64,000 nt of DNA from Ectothiorhodospira shaposhnikovii (GTDB lineage Bacteria > Pseudomonadota > Gammaproteobacteria > Ectothiorhodospirales > Ectothiorhodospiraceae): assembly GCF_022227765.1 (NCBI RefSeq), contig NZ_JAJMLZ010000004.1, positions 1 through 64,000 on the forward strand, in the 5' to 3' direction. The first letter of the stretch is position 1. Each line of letters begins with the position of its first letter. This document shows positions 7,767-54,735 of this stretch, piece after piece. The position numbers and the translations under genes are program-made. Below the pieces are notes generated by a model. That model had not been told where the DNA came from and searched no databases. It saw only the letters and a list, made by a program, of their open reading frames with translations.

Positions 7767-9326
7767 ATGGCCAACCATCAGCGCCTCACACTCCCCATCG
7801 GTATCCAGTCCTTTGAAAAACTGCGCAAGGGCCACTACTACTACGTCGACAAGACCCCCCTGATCGAGTCCATGGCGAAGATCGGCGGCTACTACTTCCT
7901 CTCCCGTCCCCGCCGCTTCGGTAAAAGCCTGCTGCTGGACACCCTGCGCTGCCTGTTTGAAGGTCACCAGGCGCTGTTCGACGGACTCTACATCCACGAC
8001 CGCTGGGACTGGCAGCAGACCCACCCGGCGATTCGCCTGAGTTTTGGAGATGGCGTGCTGACCAGCCGCGAGGCCCTGGACATCCACATCCATGAACTGC
8101 TCAATGCCCAGGCCGAGGCATTGGGCGTTTCCCTGCGCAACACCTCCATTGCCGGCCGCTTTCGCGAGCTTATCCACCAGACCCACCAGCACCATGGTCG
8201 ACGGGCAGTGGTGCTGATCGATGAATACGACAAGCCCATCCTGGACAACATCCTGGAACCGGAGCGTGCCCGGGAGCTGCGCGAGGGCCTCAAGAACCTC
8301 TACAGCGTGCTCAAGGACGCCGATCCCCATCTGCATCTGGTGCTGATCACCGGGGTCTCCAAGTTCAGCAAGGTCAGCCTGTTCTCGGGGCTGAACAACC
8401 TCAACGACATCACCCTGGACGCACCCTACAGCACGATTTGCGGCTATACCGATGAGGACATCGACACGGTATTCTCCCCGGAACTGCCCGGCCTGGACCG
8501 CGAGGCCATCCGCCAGTGGTACAACGGCTACCGCTGGGGCGGCCCCGAGGTCGCATCGGTCTACAACCCCTTCGATGTGCTGCTACTGCTCCAGAAACGC
8601 GAGTTCGGTCCCTACTGGTTCGAGAGCGCCACGCCGACCTTCCTGGTCAATCTGCTCAAGCAGCGTGGGGTCTTCACGCCATCGCTGGACCAGTGGGAAA
8701 CGGAGTACGAGCTGCTCAGCCAGTTTGACGTTGACGACATCAGTACCGACGCGCTGCTCTTTCAGGCCGGCTACCTGACGATCAAGCAGATCAAGGAGCC
8801 CATGCTGGGTTACCGCCAGTACACCCTGGGCTTTCCCAACCACGAGGTGGAAACCAGCCTGAACCATGCGCTACTCCCATCATTGGGCGTCGAGAACGGC
8901 CCACGTGAACGCCGCACCCTGTTCAAGCACTTGCAGCAGCACGACCTGGCGGGCCTGGAGACTCACCTCAAGGCCCTTTATGCCGGCCTGCCTCACGATT
9001 GGTACCGCAACAACCCGATTGCCCGGTACGAAGGCCACTACGCCAGCGTCTTCTACAGCCACTTCGCCGCGCTTGGGGTCCAGGTCACGGTGGAAGACGC
9101 CAGCCACCACGGCAAGGTGGACATGACCGTTGACTTCGGCGGCCACATCTACCTGTTCGAATTCAAGGTGGTGGAACAACTCCCCGAGGGCAGGGCGCTG
9201 GCGCAGATCAAGGCCAAGGGCTATGCCGACAAGTACCGCGCCTCCGGCAAACCCATTCACCTGATCGGCGTGGAGTTTTCCCGGGAAAAGCGACAGATCG
9301 TGGCGTTTGAGGTGGGCCGGGGATGA
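7767..9326 (+). CDS. AAA-ATPase-like / PD-(D/E)XK nuclease-like protein
   Basis: 519 aa. The N-terminal block LPIGIQSFEKLRKGHYYYVDKT is the signature of the AAA-ATPase-like family (PF09820). A P-loop variant SRPRRFGKSLLL (about residues 45-56) and VVLIDEYDKPIL (about 147-158, Walker B) follow. The C-terminus holds EGHYASVFYSHFAALG, GKVDMTVDFGGHIYLFEFKV: D and E-x-K fit a PD-(D/E)XK core (PF08011, about 425-490). Function unknown; the families occur in many copies in bacteria with large accessory genomes. GGAGGGCCAGGC precedes the ATG. Confidence 0.88.
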   Translation: MANHQRLTLPIGIQSFEKLRKGHYYYVDKTPLIESMAKIGGYYFLSRPRRFGKSLLLDTLRCLFEGHQALFDGLYIHDRWDWQQTHPAIRLSFGDGVLTSREALDIHIHELLNAQAEALGVSLRNTSIAGRFRELIHQTHQHHGRRAVVLIDEYDKPILDNILEPERARELREGLKNLYSVLKDADPHLHLVLITGVSKFSKVSLFSGLNNLNDITLDAPYSTICGYTDEDIDTVFSPELPGLDREAIRQWYNGYRWGGPEVASVYNPFDVLLLLQKREFGPYWFESATPTFLVNLLKQRGVFTPSLDQWETEYELLSQFDVDDISTDALLFQAGYLTIKQIKEPMLGYRQYTLGFPNHEVETSLNHALLPSLGVENGPRERRTLFKHLQQHDLAGLETHLKALYAGLPHDWYRNNPIARYEGHYASVFYSHFAALGVQVTVEDASHHGKVDMTVDFGGHIYLFEFKVVEQLPEGRALAQIKAKGYADKYRASGKPIHLIGVEFSREKRQIVAFEVGRG

Positions 9327-25665: not shown

Positions 25666-25742
25666 GGAGTGGTAGTTCAGTTGGTTAGAATACCGGCCTG
25701 TCACGCCGGGGGTCGCGGGTTCGAGTCCCGTCCACTCCGCCA
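25666..25742 (+). tRNA. tRNA-Asp (GTC)
   Basis: 77 nt with CCA encoded. Acceptor GGAGTGG/CCACTCC, D loop AGTTCAGTTGGTTAGAAT, anticodon stem-loop CCGGC-CTGTCAC-GCCGG (anticodon GTC) and T loop GGGTTCGAGTCCC are all intact. Confidence 0.98.
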
Positions 25743-25796
25743 TTTTTGAATCCCTGGAGCAGAAGGCTGCAGGGTGTATTGTTTTTCAAGTGTCTT

Positions 25797-25871
<75 letters not shown>

Positions 25872-42869: not shown

Positions 42870-43802
42870 ATGTCCAATATTCTCATTGTCGATGGCAACA
42901 ATATCGGCTTTGCCGCGCAGACCGGAGGCGCGAAGCTCTCGGTTGGCGGCCGCGATGTTCGTTCCATCTTTGGTTTTCTCAAAACGCTTCGGATGTTGGC
43001 CCAAGCCCACTCCGACTATTACCCCATTGTCCTGTGGGACGGGAAGGATAATTGGCGTTTCAAGGTTTATCCCGAATACAAGGGCAACCGCAACAAGGAC
43101 AGCAAGATGGCTCAGGCAAAGGAAGCCTGGTCCGAGCAAAAGTCTGATCTGCAGCAGGCGCTGCGTTTGCTGGGCGTGGCTCAGTGCTTTCCCGAGCAGG
43201 CCGAGGCTGACGATGTGGCCGGGCTTTTGGTCCGCAAGCGTGCCGGGCGAAAGGCCATCCTGGTTACTGGGGACAAGGACTGGGTGCAGTTGGTGAGCAA
43301 CGATGTGCGCTGGTATGACCCGATCCGTGACCGCTGGTGTTTCCCGTCCAATTTTGCCGAGTTCACCGGCTACGCCTCGGCCCGTCAGTTCTTGGACGGC
43401 AAGGCGCTGACGGGGGATTCGTCCGACAACATCAAGGGCGTTGGCGGCATTGGTGAGAAGGGCGCCCAGGAGTTGATGATGCAGTATGGCTCCGTTGAGG
43501 CGTTCTTCCATAAGGTCGATGCGATGGGCCATGCCCCTGCCAGTGCGGTCCTCAAGCGTTTTGCTGCCAATGAGGTGCCACCCAAGTCTTCCGTCCCCAT
43601 GCGGGACGCTTATTACCGCAACCTGCGGCTGATGAATTTGATCGACAACATGGAGCCAATAGGCTTGGTGACATGGGACCGTTCGACCCCTGACATCGCG
43701 GGCTTCAAAGCCTTCTGTGAGGAATTTCACTTTCTGTCCATCTTGTCGGTTCTCGACCAGTGGCAGTCCGTTTTCAGCATCGAAAAAAGGAGAGCAGCAT
43801 GA
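42870..43802 (+). CDS. 5'-3' exonuclease (FEN/RNase H-type)
   Basis: 310 aa. The acidic metal-binding clusters are in order: IVDGNNI (Asp8), LWDGKDNWRFKVYPEYKGNR, EAEADDVAG (about 108-116), VTGDKDWVQL and TGDSSDNIKGVGGIGEKGA (H3TH region). This is the fold of T4 RNase H, T5 FEN and the Pol I 5' nuclease, which remove RNA primers and flaps. The DnaE-type polymerase lacks such an activity. It overlaps the UvsX start by 4 nt (ATGA). Confidence 0.92.
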   Translation: MSNILIVDGNNIGFAAQTGGAKLSVGGRDVRSIFGFLKTLRMLAQAHSDYYPIVLWDGKDNWRFKVYPEYKGNRNKDSKMAQAKEAWSEQKSDLQQALRLLGVAQCFPEQAEADDVAGLLVRKRAGRKAILVTGDKDWVQLVSNDVRWYDPIRDRWCFPSNFAEFTGYASARQFLDGKALTGDSSDNIKGVGGIGEKGAQELMMQYGSVEAFFHKVDAMGHAPASAVLKRFAANEVPPKSSVPMRDAYYRNLRLMNLIDNMEPIGLVTWDRSTPDIAGFKAFCEEFHFLSILSVLDQWQSVFSIEKRRAA

Positions 43803-45859
43803 GCAGTGCATTGGCAGAACTTGAGGCCCTGATTGGCGCGGCAGCGGCGTGTGAAGACGAGGTGAAGGGTTGGCTCAGCACTGGCTTCCCTCAGCTCAAC
43901 AAGATCCTCTCCGGGCGTTACGACGGTGGCTTTGCTTATGGGCGCATGTACGAGATTTATGGTCCATCTTCTTCCGGCAAGACCGTGATCGCGGCCAATG
44001 CCATGATCGAGGCGCAAAAGGCCGGCGGCATCGTCATCATGGCCGACTTTGAGCGGGCCTTCATGGTTGAGCTGTCCGCCAAGATGGGTTTGAACGTGGA
44101 AAAGCCTCATTTCATCCACATGCAGCCGACAACCTGGGAGCAGGGCAACACTTTGGCGATGCAGGCGGCGGAATTGATCCGCAAGCGCGGCCTGATTGAT
44201 CCGCAAGCGCCGATCCTGTTTGTGCTTGACTCCATCGCGGCGGCAGTGCCTAAGTCGATGGTCGATAAAGAGCTGGATGAGTTGTCCATGAACGACACCA
44301 CGGCCCTGGCCCGTGTCACCAGTACAACGCTCAAGGTCATCAATGCCAGAGCTTCGGCCATCAACATGACCTGCTTGTACCTCAATCAGATCCGCACCAA
44401 ACCTGGGGTCGTTTATGGCGACCCGACCTGCCTCAGAGGGGACGTAATGATTCCCTTTGTTGATGGGACTTCCGCAAGCATTGCCACGGTGGTCGAGCGG
44501 AAAATTGATAAGGAGGTTTGGTCTTACAATGAGGCCACTCAGTCCATTGAGCCGCGCAGAATTATCGGTTGGCATGACAACGGCCCGAAGCCGGAGGGTA
44601 AGGCTTGGGTTCATATTCGTGCGCAGGGCTTCGGCACAAAGAATGGGATCTTTGGCATGACAGTGACCAATGACCACCTCATCTTGACGCAAAGGGGGTG
44701 GGTGGAGGCCGGAAGCCTGACCACTGACGACAAGGTTGTTTCCAGTGTGGAACGTATGTTTGCTGGTCGCGCTCTTGAGTTTCTGAAGGCGGTCATGGCC
44801 TTTGACTGCAGTTTGGTTCAGCCATCACGTCAGAGACTGACTGCCTGTTTGAATCTGCAAGACAACAGGAACCCTGAGTATGCCAAGTGGAAGGTTGAAA
44901 TGCTGAGTGAGCACCTGTCTTTCAAGGCGACTGAAATCAAGTGGAAAGGTGGGAGTGGCATCAAGTACGCCTCCAACTTTTCCAACGAACTGAAGCTGCT
45001 TTCTGATTGCGCCAGAAACCCTCTGAGAGCCTTCGAGGATGGCATCACCAAGGAGCAACTTGCCATTGCGATCATGGATGATGGGCACATGAGTGACGAC
45101 CGGGCACGGTACACCTTGAGCTTCAGGAGGTTCGCCGGGAACCACGATCATCTTGAGAGGATAGGGGAGATTTTTGCCGACCTCGGACTCACGTTCTCGA
45201 TTCGCTATGGTCTTGGCGCAATCGTGTTTGATGCGAATTCCTCGCGGAAGATTGCCGGGATGATTGCCGAGCATGTCCCGTCTTGCATGGAGTACAAGCT
45301 GCCACCTGAGTTCAGAGGTAAGTACGTTCATCGGCCTTTGGCTTGCACTCCGATGACTGAGGCGGAATTTGCCGACGTTGTTGAGGTTCGTCCTGGTGGC
45401 AAGACGCACCAGAGTCATCGGATGTACGACATTACCGTTGAGGGGAACCACAACTATCTGGCTGGCAACGTACTCAATGGGTTCGTCGTGCATAACTGTA
45501 CCCCAGGTGGAGGCGCGATGGAATTTTACGCCTCTGGTCGGTTGGCCGTGGGTCGCAAGAAGATCATGGACAAGGAGAAGGAATTTGCCGGCCAGTTGAT
45601 CTCGCTCAAGGCGGTGAAGAACAAACACACCAGACCGTTTCAGGAAACCGAACTGTACTTCATGTTCAGGGAGGACGGATCGGGCTACTTCGACCACATC
45701 CATTCGATGATCGACTACTTGGTGAAGATTGGCAAACTCACGCAGTCCGGCGCCAGAATCGCATGGACGGACGGCAAATCCTACTTTGTCAGTCAACTGA
45801 TCAAGAAGGTCGAGGAAGAAGGGCTTTACGGCGAGCTTTTGGCCATGTTGCCATCATGA
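43799..45859 (+). CDS. uvsX: RecA/UvsX recombinase interrupted by an in-frame intein
   Basis: 686 aa precursor. The extein halves are 210 and 120 residues, giving a mature protein of 330 aa. N-extein: Walker A GPSSSGKT (55-62), IMADFERAF, FVLDSIAA (Walker B) and LNQIRTKPGVVYGDPT. C-extein: CTPGGGAMEFYASGRLAVGRKK. The join GDPT-CTPGG is the L2 DNA-binding loop of RecA. It should catalyse strand exchange for phage recombination and replication with the SSB, UvsY-like protein and gp46/47 pair. Host-cell RecA proteins are somewhat longer at the C-terminus. Confidence 0.95.
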   Translation: MSSALAELEALIGAAAACEDEVKGWLSTGFPQLNKILSGRYDGGFAYGRMYEIYGPSSSGKTVIAANAMIEAQKAGGIVIMADFERAFMVELSAKMGLNVEKPHFIHMQPTTWEQGNTLAMQAAELIRKRGLIDPQAPILFVLDSIAAAVPKSMVDKELDELSMNDTTALARVTSTTLKVINARASAINMTCLYLNQIRTKPGVVYGDPTCLRGDVMIPFVDGTSASIATVVERKIDKEVWSYNEATQSIEPRRIIGWHDNGPKPEGKAWVHIRAQGFGTKNGIFGMTVTNDHLILTQRGWVEAGSLTTDDKVVSSVERMFAGRALEFLKAVMAFDCSLVQPSRQRLTACLNLQDNRNPEYAKWKVEMLSEHLSFKATEIKWKGGSGIKYASNFSNELKLLSDCARNPLRAFEDGITKEQLAIAIMDDGHMSDDRARYTLSFRRFAGNHDHLERIGEIFADLGLTFSIRYGLGAIVFDANSSRKIAGMIAEHVPSCMEYKLPPEFRGKYVHRPLACTPMTEAEFADVVEVRPGGKTHQSHRMYDITVEGNHNYLAGNVLNGFVVHNCTPGGGAMEFYASGRLAVGRKKIMDKEKEFAGQLISLKAVKNKHTRPFQETELYFMFREDGSGYFDHIHSMIDYLVKIGKLTQSGARIAWTDGKSYFVSQLIKKVEEEGLYGELLAMLPS
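44429..45496 (+). other. Intein with LAGLIDADG-like homing endonuclease, inside the recombinase
   Basis: 356 residues. It begins with Cys1 (CLRGDVMIPFVDGTSASI), block B is VTNDHLILTQRGWVEAGSL, the endonuclease region has EQLAIAIMDDGHMSDD (a LAGLIDADG/DOD-type helix), and block F/G is MYDITVEGNHNYLAGNVLNGFVVHN followed by +1 Cys. All splicing residues are present, so splicing should be active. A second LAGLIDADG helix is less clear (DHLERIGEIFADLGL), so endonuclease activity is uncertain. It sits in a loop that binds DNA, so an unspliced protein cannot be a working recombinase. Confidence 0.95.
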
Positions 45860-52931: not shown

Positions 52932-53722
52932 TGAAAAAGGTTATTGGAGTTTTTCTGTTGCTGGCGATGGCCCTGGCACTGACTGGGTGCGGGACCGTCG
53001 AGACGGGTAACGTGGGGGTACGCACCGCCTGGGATGGTCATGTCCAGCTCACCGAATTGCCGCCCGGCTTTTACACGGCCTTCATGTCTTCGGTGCAGGA
53101 GTTTTCGACCAAAGAGATCACCGTGCCCATGAGTGGCCTCAAGCCGAAAGCGAGGGATAACCTATCCCTGGCGAATGTGGATGTGGAGGTCTATTACACG
53201 GTCAGACCCGACCAGGTGGCCGAGTTGAGTACGAAATACGCCAATCGGCATTTGCTCGAAGGAGGTATTTGGTATCCGGCGTTTGAACTGGTGAGGTCGA
53301 TGGGCCGGGATGCTGTTTATGCCACATTTGCCGAGTACGACAGCCTGATTGTCCACCAGAAACGCGACGAGGTGAGGGAGGCGATTGAGGCCCGCACCCA
53401 AAGGGCTTTGGAGCAATCCGACCCTGGCGTGTTTCGGGTGACGAAGGTTGTGGTCCGTGACATCAGAACTGATCCATCCGTGGAAGAGGCCATCAAGACG
53501 GCTGTAAGCCGAAACAAGGAGTTGGAAGCGAAGAGCGTTGAGCTTCAGATTGCCGGTGAGCAGGTTCTGATCAACCAGGCGCTAACCCAATCACTGACGC
53601 CGGAAATCTTGCGTCAACGGGAGTTGGAGGTGATCGAGGCCGCTTGTACGTCCGGCAAGAGCACCTGCATTCTCACGGTCGGCCAGGGCACTGGACCGCT
53701 GCCTTTGGTGAACGTCAGGTAA
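52931..53722 (+). CDS. SPFH/prohibitin-like lipoprotein
   Basis: 263 aa. A signal peptide ends in a lipobox LALTGC (Cys near residue 20). An SPFH (prohibitin/HflC-like) domain follows: VETGNVGVRTAWDGHV, PMSGLKPKARDNLSLANVDVEVYYTV, then a coiled helical part with VVVRDIRTDPSVEEAIKTAVSRNKELEAK. Phage SPFH proteins may organise membrane patches or counter host proteases such as FtsH; this is only possible here. Co-expressed with two small membrane proteins. Confidence 0.85.
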   Translation: MKKVIGVFLLLAMALALTGCGTVETGNVGVRTAWDGHVQLTELPPGFYTAFMSSVQEFSTKEITVPMSGLKPKARDNLSLANVDVEVYYTVRPDQVAELSTKYANRHLLEGGIWYPAFELVRSMGRDAVYATFAEYDSLIVHQKRDEVREAIEARTQRALEQSDPGVFRVTKVVVRDIRTDPSVEEAIKTAVSRNKELEAKSVELQIAGEQVLINQALTQSLTPEILRQRELEVIEAACTSGKSTCILTVGQGTGPLPLVNVR

Positions 53723-53743
53723 AGTCTTTTTGATCTGAAAGTT

Positions 53744-53763
53744 AAGTAATTGGTTACTATACT
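53744..53763 (+). promoter_or_regulatory. Operator-promoter: palindrome overlapping TATACT
   Basis: AAGTAAT-TG-GTTACTA runs into TATACT (53,758-53,763). It is almost the same as 41,836. Transcription from here would start about 53,770, just ahead of the structured region. Confidence 0.78.
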
Positions 53764-53788
53764 CTAAAGCGAAGAAGCAGTACGCCGT

Positions 53789-54210
53789 CTCACCAGGGCG
53801 TTATCTGGTGAGCATCGGGAAGGGCTTTGGTCGAGTGTTGACCACACCCACGAGGTAAGTGTCCGGCGGTTTACATGACGGCCACCAAAGCCCTTCCCGA
53901 TGTGGTGAATGCGTAGGCTGATACGCAAGGTGGTACAGCCCTTGAGGACTGCCCTGTAACCAGACCTCTAAGTTGGGGATCAGCGCCGACCACTGCATCA
54001 ACGGAACCCCTCTCGCCGTAGTACAAAGGAGAGGGCATCGGGAAGGGTTCTGTGGCACCTCGTGGCCGCTGTAACTCAAGTGCTTGGCGGGTAACGGTAA
54101 ATCAAAAGGTCTTCGGGCACAGCGATAGCCGCCGCGACTGGACGCACCGAAACGCGGATTAACGGAGCGCAGGTAATAAGTCCGCAGATCCCTTCCCGAT
54201 GTGGTGAATG
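53789..54210 (+). ncRNA. Predicted structured RNA of two homologous folded units
   Basis: Unit 1 begins with hairpin CTCACCAG/CTGGTGAG (53,789-53,812), directly followed by a perfect 19-bp stem: 53,813-53,831 pairs with 53,884-53,902. Unit 2 begins with hairpin CCCTCTC/GAGAGGG (54,008-54,035), directly followed by CATCGGGAAGGG (54,036-54,047) pairing with CCCTTCCCGATG (54,190-54,201) and extended by TCTG/CAGA. After both closing stems comes TGTGGTGAATGC. The outer stem is the same, but the leading hairpin and the inner stem differ in sequence while staying paired, which supports RNA structure. No reading frame fits. It could be a stand-alone RNA or the leader of the dUTPase operon. I cannot assign it to a known RNA family. 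Confidence 0.7.
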
Positions 54211-54264
54211 CCGCACGGCCATCACATCGCCACACCTCATCAACCAACTATGGGAGAAAACGCT

Positions 54265-54735
54265 TTGAACCTTCCCGTTCAAATCAAAATTCTGGACGAC
54301 CGTATCGGCGCCACTTTCGATCTGCCCGCCTACAAGAGCGACATGGCCGCCGGCCTGGATCTTCTGGCTGCAATCGACAAGCCTCTGCGCTTGGCGCCCA
54401 ATCAGGTTGAGCTGGTAGGGACCGGCATCGCCATCTGGATCAACAACCCCGGCTACGCCGCCATGATCGTTCCCCGCTCCGGGCTGGGTCACAAGCATGG
54501 CATCGTCTGCGGCAACCTGACCGGCATCATCGACGCCGATTATCAGGGACAGCTTCACATCAGCGTCTGGAACAGAAGCGAAGAGCACTACGTCATCAAC
54601 CCTGGCGACCGGATTGCCCAGCTCCTGTTTGTGCCCATCGCCAGAGCCGATTTTGAAGTGGTGTCTGATTTCCATGCCAACACTGTTCGGGGCTGCGGTG
54701 GCTTTGGCAGCACGGGCATTTCTGGAGTCGCATGA
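54265..54735 (+). CDS. dut: dUTPase
   Basis: 156 aa from TTG at 54,265, which has GGGAGAAA at the right distance; ATG 54,250 in frame has none. Trimeric dUTP diphosphatase motifs: 1, [12 protein letters not shown]; 2, [12 protein letters not shown]; 3, [13 protein letters not shown]; 4, [13 protein letters not shown]; 5, [10 protein letters not shown]. Keeps dUTP low and gives dUMP to the phage ThyA. Its stop overlaps the next start. Confidence 0.95.

Follow-up and report, generated by a model that had tools for sequence, protein, structure and literature searches.

The locus that we analyze here lies in a 64,000-nt stretch of an Ectothiorhodospira shaposhnikovii contig (NZ_JAJMLZ010000004.1; hereafter, the window) and is the leader of a phage operon, with a dUTPase gene and a kinase-like gene downstream, that contains a representative of an RNA family widespread among phages. 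The conserved core of this family, which we designate J, appears to define a real and largely overlooked class of RNAs, and comparative sequence analysis supports both its structure and the family membership of the window copy with high confidence. The initial annotation of the locus had put forward a structured RNA made of two homologous units. Covariation across phages backs the structured RNA, and it relocates the element: the conserved core spans the end of the first unit and the spacer before the second, and the long hairpins originally described are accessory, variable stems upstream of J.

The hairpin and long-stem pairs first noted are present at both units, with verified coordinates (Table 1). 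The first hairpin is directly followed by a perfect stem of 19 bp, as reported, and the second by a long stem in which a T-T mismatch separates 12 bp from another 7, including one G-U, where only 4 had been counted. The leading hairpins and the inner parts of the stems differ in sequence between the two copies and retain their pairing, again as originally described, and TGTGGTGAATGC directly follows the 3′ arm of both long stems. A 496-nt stretch of the locus folds more stably than 100 of 100 dinucleotide shuffles (z −4.2). The TATACT promoter-like site is found upstream, at a frequency near chance (one found versus 0.5 expected in shuffles), and its attribution to a phage operator family is weakly supported by TTGGTTACTATACT, which occurs six times in the window with up to three mismatches, the promoter site counted, against 0.75 expected. 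The start codon of the dUTPase gene is uncertain (ATG at 54208 or 54250, TTG at 54265), and both of its profile matches were computed on 54265-54735. No intrinsic terminator was detected in 53500-54400, so a free-standing small RNA (sRNA) is not evident in the window.

Table 1. Features of the leader locus, in window coordinates.
Feature	Position	Strand	Remarks
Sigma-70-like promoter CTGAAA-17-TATACT	53735..53763	+	Match to the consensus alone; frequency near chance
Hairpin Y1, directly 5′ of arm A1	53789..53812	+	Fold −13.4 kcal/mol
Arm A1 of 19-bp stem (first unit of initial annotation)	53813..53831	+	
Variable interior of stem 1	53832..53883	+	Without Rfam or ARAGORN match
Arm A2 of 19-bp stem	53884..53902	+	Final four bases shared with the start of J
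Conserved RNA core J, whole	53899..53999	+	64.2 bits, E 1.6e-13, model built without the window
Closing (acceptor-like) stem, 5′ strand, GATGTGGTG	53899..53907	+	Pairs with 53991-53999, two G-U pairs
D-like hairpin GCGTA-GGCTGA-TACGC	53911..53926	+	Two-sided changes at 4 of 5 pairs across the family
Variable linker between D-like and T-like hairpins	53927..53971	+	
T-like hairpin GTTGG-GGATCAGCG-CCGAC	53972..53990	+	9-nt loop
Closing stem, 3′ strand, CACTGCATC	53991..53999	+	Directly after T-like hairpin
Hairpin Y2, directly 5′ of second long stem	54008..54035	+	
Arm A1′ of second long stem (second unit of initial annotation)	54036..54055	+	
Variable interior of stem 2	54056..54181	+	
Arm A2′ of second long stem	54182..54201	+	
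Shortened second core, GATGTGGTG / CATCACATC around AAT-GCC-GCAC-GGC	54198..54228	+	Predicted fold
dUTPase gene, downstream	54250..54735	+	PF00692 E 2.5e-34; phrog_135 E 1.7e-50

The right part of the window is phage or prophage DNA, encoding a DNA polymerase, UvsX, SbcC-like, thymidylate synthase, Band-7 lipoprotein, dUTPase and kinase-like proteins, and its left part encodes proteins of bacterial appearance (EpsG, histidine kinase). A tRNA-Asp and a tRNA-Thr at 25666-25871 sit between the bacterial-looking and the phage genes, at a possible integration boundary. The UvsX-like recombinase (699 aa, 43760-45859) contains in its middle a predicted intein-like insertion that matches the LAGLIDADG homing endonuclease family phrog_11023 (E 1e-6).

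J begins in the 3′ arm of the first long stem and stops before the second unit, and the conserved unit therefore straddles the boundary drawn by the initial annotation. The first strand of its 7-bp closing stem is followed by AAT and by a hairpin of 5 bp whose loop reads GGCUGA; after a variable linker comes a second 5-bp hairpin (loop ..AUCAGC.), which directly adjoins the other strand of the closing stem. The two hairpin loops are complementary (TCAGC at 53980-53984 to GCTGA at 53917-53921), and J alone folds into the family structure at −34.8 kcal/mol. In its predicted structure, J has the layout of a tRNA, with an acceptor, a D arm, a variable region and a T arm; the D-like hairpin, the T-like hairpin and the CACTGCATC/GATGTGGTG closing stem had all been missed in the earlier reading. 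The shortened second core lacks both the D-like hairpin and the linker, and it is undetected by covariance models.

Membership of the window core in the J family is indicated both by model score and by the layout of stem, hairpins and loops. The covariance model R2, built without the window, scores J at 64.2 bits, and the next match in the window reaches 13.2 bits. Scanning IMG/VR with GGTGAATGCGNAGGCTGAT yielded at least 120 matches, and a pairing descriptor yielded 179, 158 of them distinct, with matches in 0 of 80 mononucleotide-shuffled stretches. A first alignment comprised 85 of 109 diverse cores, drawn from 157 of up to 150 nt; the 24 cores omitted are mostly longer than the rest, a few having no noted reason. 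A second alignment also omitted the window and three loci, L180, L198 and L199 (T hairpin badly placed by MAFFT in the first alignment). Across the 85 aligned cores 95.1% of cells pair, and 12 of 24 pairs present two-sided changes, totaling 137 such cells; shuffles average 42.8, with 0 of 500 reaching the observed values, and slid pairing partners give at most 42. The loop-loop pairs GCUGA/UCAGC are paired in 99% of cells, with three of the five pairs invariant and no two-sided changes in the 85-core alignment; the loops vary too little, and the contact is thus unproven by covariation.

Since the cores in both alignments had been selected by the pairing descriptor, which favors pairing in the 85-core covariation count, the analysis was repeated on 170 distinct, sequence-anchored cores with enough flank, with no pairing demanded. 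The second loop (TCAG[CT][AG]C) is located within 300 nt downstream in 159 of these 170 cores, compared to upstream in 12 of 151, and the T-loop anchor sits in a hairpin directly followed by a strand that can pair with the bases preceding AATGC. At positions 5, 6 and 7 of the closing stem, unconstrained on either strand, pairing is retained in 156, 153 and 152 of the 159 cores, with TA, GC, AT and CG all used at pairs 5 and 6, and TA, GC and AT at pair 7. Pairing drops to 101/159 and 68/159 at pairs 8 and 9, and we therefore take the closing helix of J to be 7 bp long. Homologues with covarying stems, which the initial annotation had named as the supporting check, have been found for J across phages.

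With an E limit of 1, a 33-nt query placed on the T-like hairpin has matches in 179 phage records out of 50,697. Carriers of J according to covariance models R1 and R2 are HK620, P1, IME207, PAJU2, mEp460, Kintu, CSP3, ZC08, ST16-OXA48phi5.2, Magnus, HC6, IME11, D14E, R656, CobraSix and N133; many of the phages with J are unrelated to one another, and N4-like and Ackermann phages are among them. The phage regions examined were our choice among the matches listed, not a random draw; J is annotated as an RNA in 0 of these 17 regions, and in 13 of the 16 annotated ones it lies on the same strand as the closest annotated feature that overlaps or follows it, which is not so in mEp460, CobraSix and N133. 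Searched as a whole with blastn, the locus has no match among phages at E 1e-5 and only short core matches at E up to 10, and in relatives of the host genome there are, besides the window itself, short matches only (best E 0.001). The exact T-like hairpin occurs in 20 genome-contig stretches, 11 of them from Enterobacterales and 5 from Burkholderiales as judged from names. With strict filters, R1 detects J in 2 of 274 genomes of the window's class, one being the window's own; a short J-like match with unusual linker length (31 bits; G219 contig 20, 11169-11223, locus L360) was seen in the same class. A weak J-like match (R1, 19.7 bits) lies in the Qin prophage of K-12, between cspB and essQ, which is a late-leader position (L252, 11062-11172, minus strand). 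A 14-base pattern was discarded as a marker, most of its sites having no J-like surrounding. Literature on phage and related RNAs, with most subscription papers outside the scope of the search, provided no description of J, and a full-text search for its letters returned only papers unrelated by title.

Phage P1 illustrates the variability of these arrangements. Isolate OP279344 has three J matches between tRNA-Thr and tciA, and the reference NC_005856 has one in the part examined, which ends before the place of the third copy, so that J copy number differs between P1 records. For the OP279344 copy located right after tRNA-Thr (L350, 2898-3032), the model finds no counterpart in the P1 reference. 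Two parts of that reference (L381, 6792-6893 and 7473-8001) are notable: a 'dicF-like region' is annotated upstream in the same leader, before the tRNA genes begin, and the J match (7818-7919) underlies the antisense ORFs plp and upl, which may therefore not be genes. In IME11, a 2-kb stretch without annotated features (L382, 1370-3453) holds two Rfam tRNAs and a J copy, and further long-stem units can be made out in it by eye.

In many phages J is preceded by a long stem whose 3′ arm enters J, often with a hairpin before the stem. Stem scores of at least 24, 30 and 35 are reached by 121, 78 and 60 of 166 upstream sequences, as opposed to 65, 7 and 0 of 494 base-shuffled ones. A cruder stem score, applied to 109 of 119 contexts (the rest being too near an end), assigns stems to 55 cores upstream only, 13 downstream only, 17 on both sides and 24 on neither. 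The interiors of the upstream stems differ widely in length and sequence. They enclose T-arm-like 17-mers in 8 of 72 cases, compared to 0.8% of control stretches, and no whole tRNA according to ARAGORN, so only T-arm-like pieces are retained here. At one locus (L228) a tRNA-like sequence can be discerned by eye inside a long flanking stem; ARAGORN reports none in the stems examined. Linkers are similar in 42 pairs of loci, of which only 4 also resemble each other over the 56 nt upstream and 7 downstream; in 17 more pairs the upstream sequence is alike and the linkers are not. Because like linkers have unlike flanks, J and its neighbors seem to be exchanged as separate modules, which suggests that J moves between phages independently of its neighbors, often with long variable stems just upstream.

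The initial annotation had recognized in the locus no tRNA, tmRNA, group I intron or other known RNA, and this holds insofar as the whole-window Rfam scan returned only two tRNAs, both distant from the locus, with no relevant match in 53500-54500 at E up to 10 and no ARAGORN tRNA gene at the locus. The implication of an RNA without known relatives does not wholly hold, for J is best seen, on sequence and layout, as a distant sister of the core shared by the STnc100 and PasD prophage sRNAs, and not as a member of it. The Rfam consensus core of STnc100 (RF02076) consists of UGGUG-AAUC, a 5-bp hairpin with a 6-nt loop, a linker with hairpins and a 5-bp hairpin directly before CACCA, and the window J presents the same layout (GGUG-AAU, 5-bp/6-nt hairpin, linker and 5-bp hairpin abutting CAC). 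The loops differ, being complementary in J (GCUGA/UCAGC) and reading GUGCGG and AGGCA in STnc100. Two copies bridge the families: the leader of dicB in an O157:H7 prophage (STnc100, 39.8 bits, E 1.2e-5; R2, 37.2 bits, E 9e-7) and the third P1 copy of OP279344 (STnc100, 33.9 bits, E 4e-4; R2, 24.4 bits, E 1e-3). The kinship rests on these bridging copies, both below the Rfam gathering score of 47 bits, and our placement of J as a sister follows from the fact that they score with both models and the other scanned copies are unmatched. STnc100 has no match in 53500-54500 at E up to 10, where its gathering score is not reached; a scan at E up to 1 leaves the window locus, HK620 and the first two P1 copies unmatched, and the HC6 copy is unmatched too. 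Conversely, the STnc100 match in phage Magnus, about 1.3 kb from the J copies of that phage, is missed by R1 (E up to 10) and R2 (E up to 0.1). The intrinsic terminator found 3′ of STnc100 is absent from the window J locus (53500-54400). The dicB leader of E. coli prophages, between dicF and dicB, resembles J in being an operon leader and in being matched by both J models, in O157:H7 as well as in K-12 (R2, 28.6 bits in K-12), and departs from it in having no UCAGC loop; a 42-nt query from the 5′ half of the dicB leader finds matches in 4375 of 5426 E. coli genomes, with gene context checked in two. PasD is a reported structural relative of STnc100 and is found near Q (PMC13192938), a phage or prophage location being common to J, STnc100 and PasD; STnc100 copies are reported to be transcribed in EHEC, one being visible on a Northern blot (PMC5331693), and PasD1 and PasD2 are described as Hfq-dependent sRNAs in EPEC (PMC8550237). 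Skipping-rope RNA (RF02924), also reported in phages and with a pseudoknot (PMC8501573, PMC7779021), a feature predicted for J as well, was considered for its name and its phage occurrence, and was rejected: none of nine records, the window's genome included, reaches 36.7 bits, eight carrier virus records have no match at E up to 10, and the window genome has only sub-threshold matches, none at the J locus.

We consider the chances about evenly balanced that the locus, taken as a whole, is best explained as a phage leader carrying J as a protective or delimiting module. The mechanism itself, in which J would serve phage RNAs as a stable scaffold or as a module for their processing, is proposed somewhat more tentatively. 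The leader would be transcribed from the promoter-like site upstream of Y1; the closing stem and the T-like hairpin would stack into one helix and the loops would kiss; and the resulting compact, RNase-resistant J would delimit and protect the upstream RNA, parting it from the downstream mRNA. The variable linker and the upstream stems would remain free for base pairing, as in the STnc100 and PasD sRNAs. The 19-bp stem and J share four bases (GATG) that are able to pair with either arm A1 or the 3′ strand of J. Forcing both J and the upstream stem, each slightly shortened, costs about 6 kcal/mol over the free fold, loop-loop pairing uncounted, a gap that would allow a co-transcriptional hand-over between upstream stem and J. 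On a broader and more speculative reading, to which we assign a clearly minor chance, Gram-negative phages share exchangeable RNA cassettes in which a fixed, tRNA-shaped scaffold follows interchangeable stem-enclosed RNAs, some of them tRNA-like, arrayed in leaders and tRNA clusters; these might include a co-transcriptional switch, because a strand of the core pairs with either the upstream stem or the core's own 3′ strand.

The genomic positions of J also invite comparison with RNA antiterminators or pausing elements such as HK022 put, in which the nascent fold lets polymerase read through terminators. The HK620 copy is bracketed by pR′ and the annotated late terminator tQ; in PAJU2, CobraSix and R656 J has Q-like or Nin genes upstream of it and lysis genes downstream; and in mEp460 it adjoins a cI-like gene on that strand. 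Terminator-like hairpins occur within 80 nt after 25 of 158 cores, compared to 88 of 1580 random places (5.6%). The put sites share with J a leader position in early and late operons, and differ from it in consisting of two hairpins without a closing multibranch stem. As 133 of the 158 cores are without a terminator within 80 nt, with none in the window (53500-54400), and some J copies lie in tRNA arrays and STnc100 relatives are sRNAs, we regard an antiterminator role as unlikely.

The resemblance of J to tRNA raises the possibility of a mimic or decoy, directed at a tRNA-handling factor or a tRNA-attacking defense nuclease, with upstream stems carrying decayed or altered tRNA parts. Such a role would account for the 7-bp stem and abutting 5-bp hairpin arranged as acceptor and T arm with zero bases between, for the D-like hairpin 2-3 nt after the stem, for the complementary loops and for the T-arm-like 17-mers of the upstream stems, and it fits the copies found in the tRNA clusters of OP279344, ZC08, Kintu and ST16-OXA48phi5.2, the last after Q and tRNAs and before the holin. 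However, the window J escapes both ARAGORN and the Rfam tRNA model, and the HC6 copy escapes the latter; the T-like loop is usually 9 nt long; and of 108 T-anchored IMG/VR copies, only 17 lie within 1 kb of a tRNA on the same strand. CCA follows the stem at no favored position, in at most 16 of 158 cores, and J as an aminoacylated or tRNA-like matured molecule was rejected on this count. We judge mimicry to be somewhat less probable still than antitermination.

A more mundane role for the stems, as plain RNase III sites or mRNA stabilizers with nothing further to do, would suit the perfect 19-bp stem and recalls the dicBF operon, where RNase III and RNase E are reported to shape DicF (PMC10448788). 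The RNase III cleavage reported there falls upstream of dicF and generates the 5′ terminus of the 190-nt DicF, whereas J lies downstream of dicF, and the conserved loops and the 7-bp limit exceed what a processing stem needs; this role ranks lower again in our estimate. A DNA-level palindrome or recombination site with pairing as a by-product is very improbable: cores with like linkers and unlike flanks, and short conserved ends that could be crossover points, are compatible with it, but J follows the strand of the nearest feature in most of the hand-chosen phage regions, and instead of homologues that keep the DNA and lose the pairing, as the initial annotation had envisaged for a DNA site, the opposite is seen, with stem sequences varying between phages and pairing maintained.

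The J core places the window locus in a wider context. It would unite STnc100, PasD, the leader of dicBF and the tRNA-tci region of P1 in one superfamily, and it covaries, is present in P1, HK620, N4-like and Ackermann phages and is detected by no Rfam 15 model in the stretches tested. For phage genomes, J provides a frame in which to interpret the long unannotated gaps of their tRNA regions.
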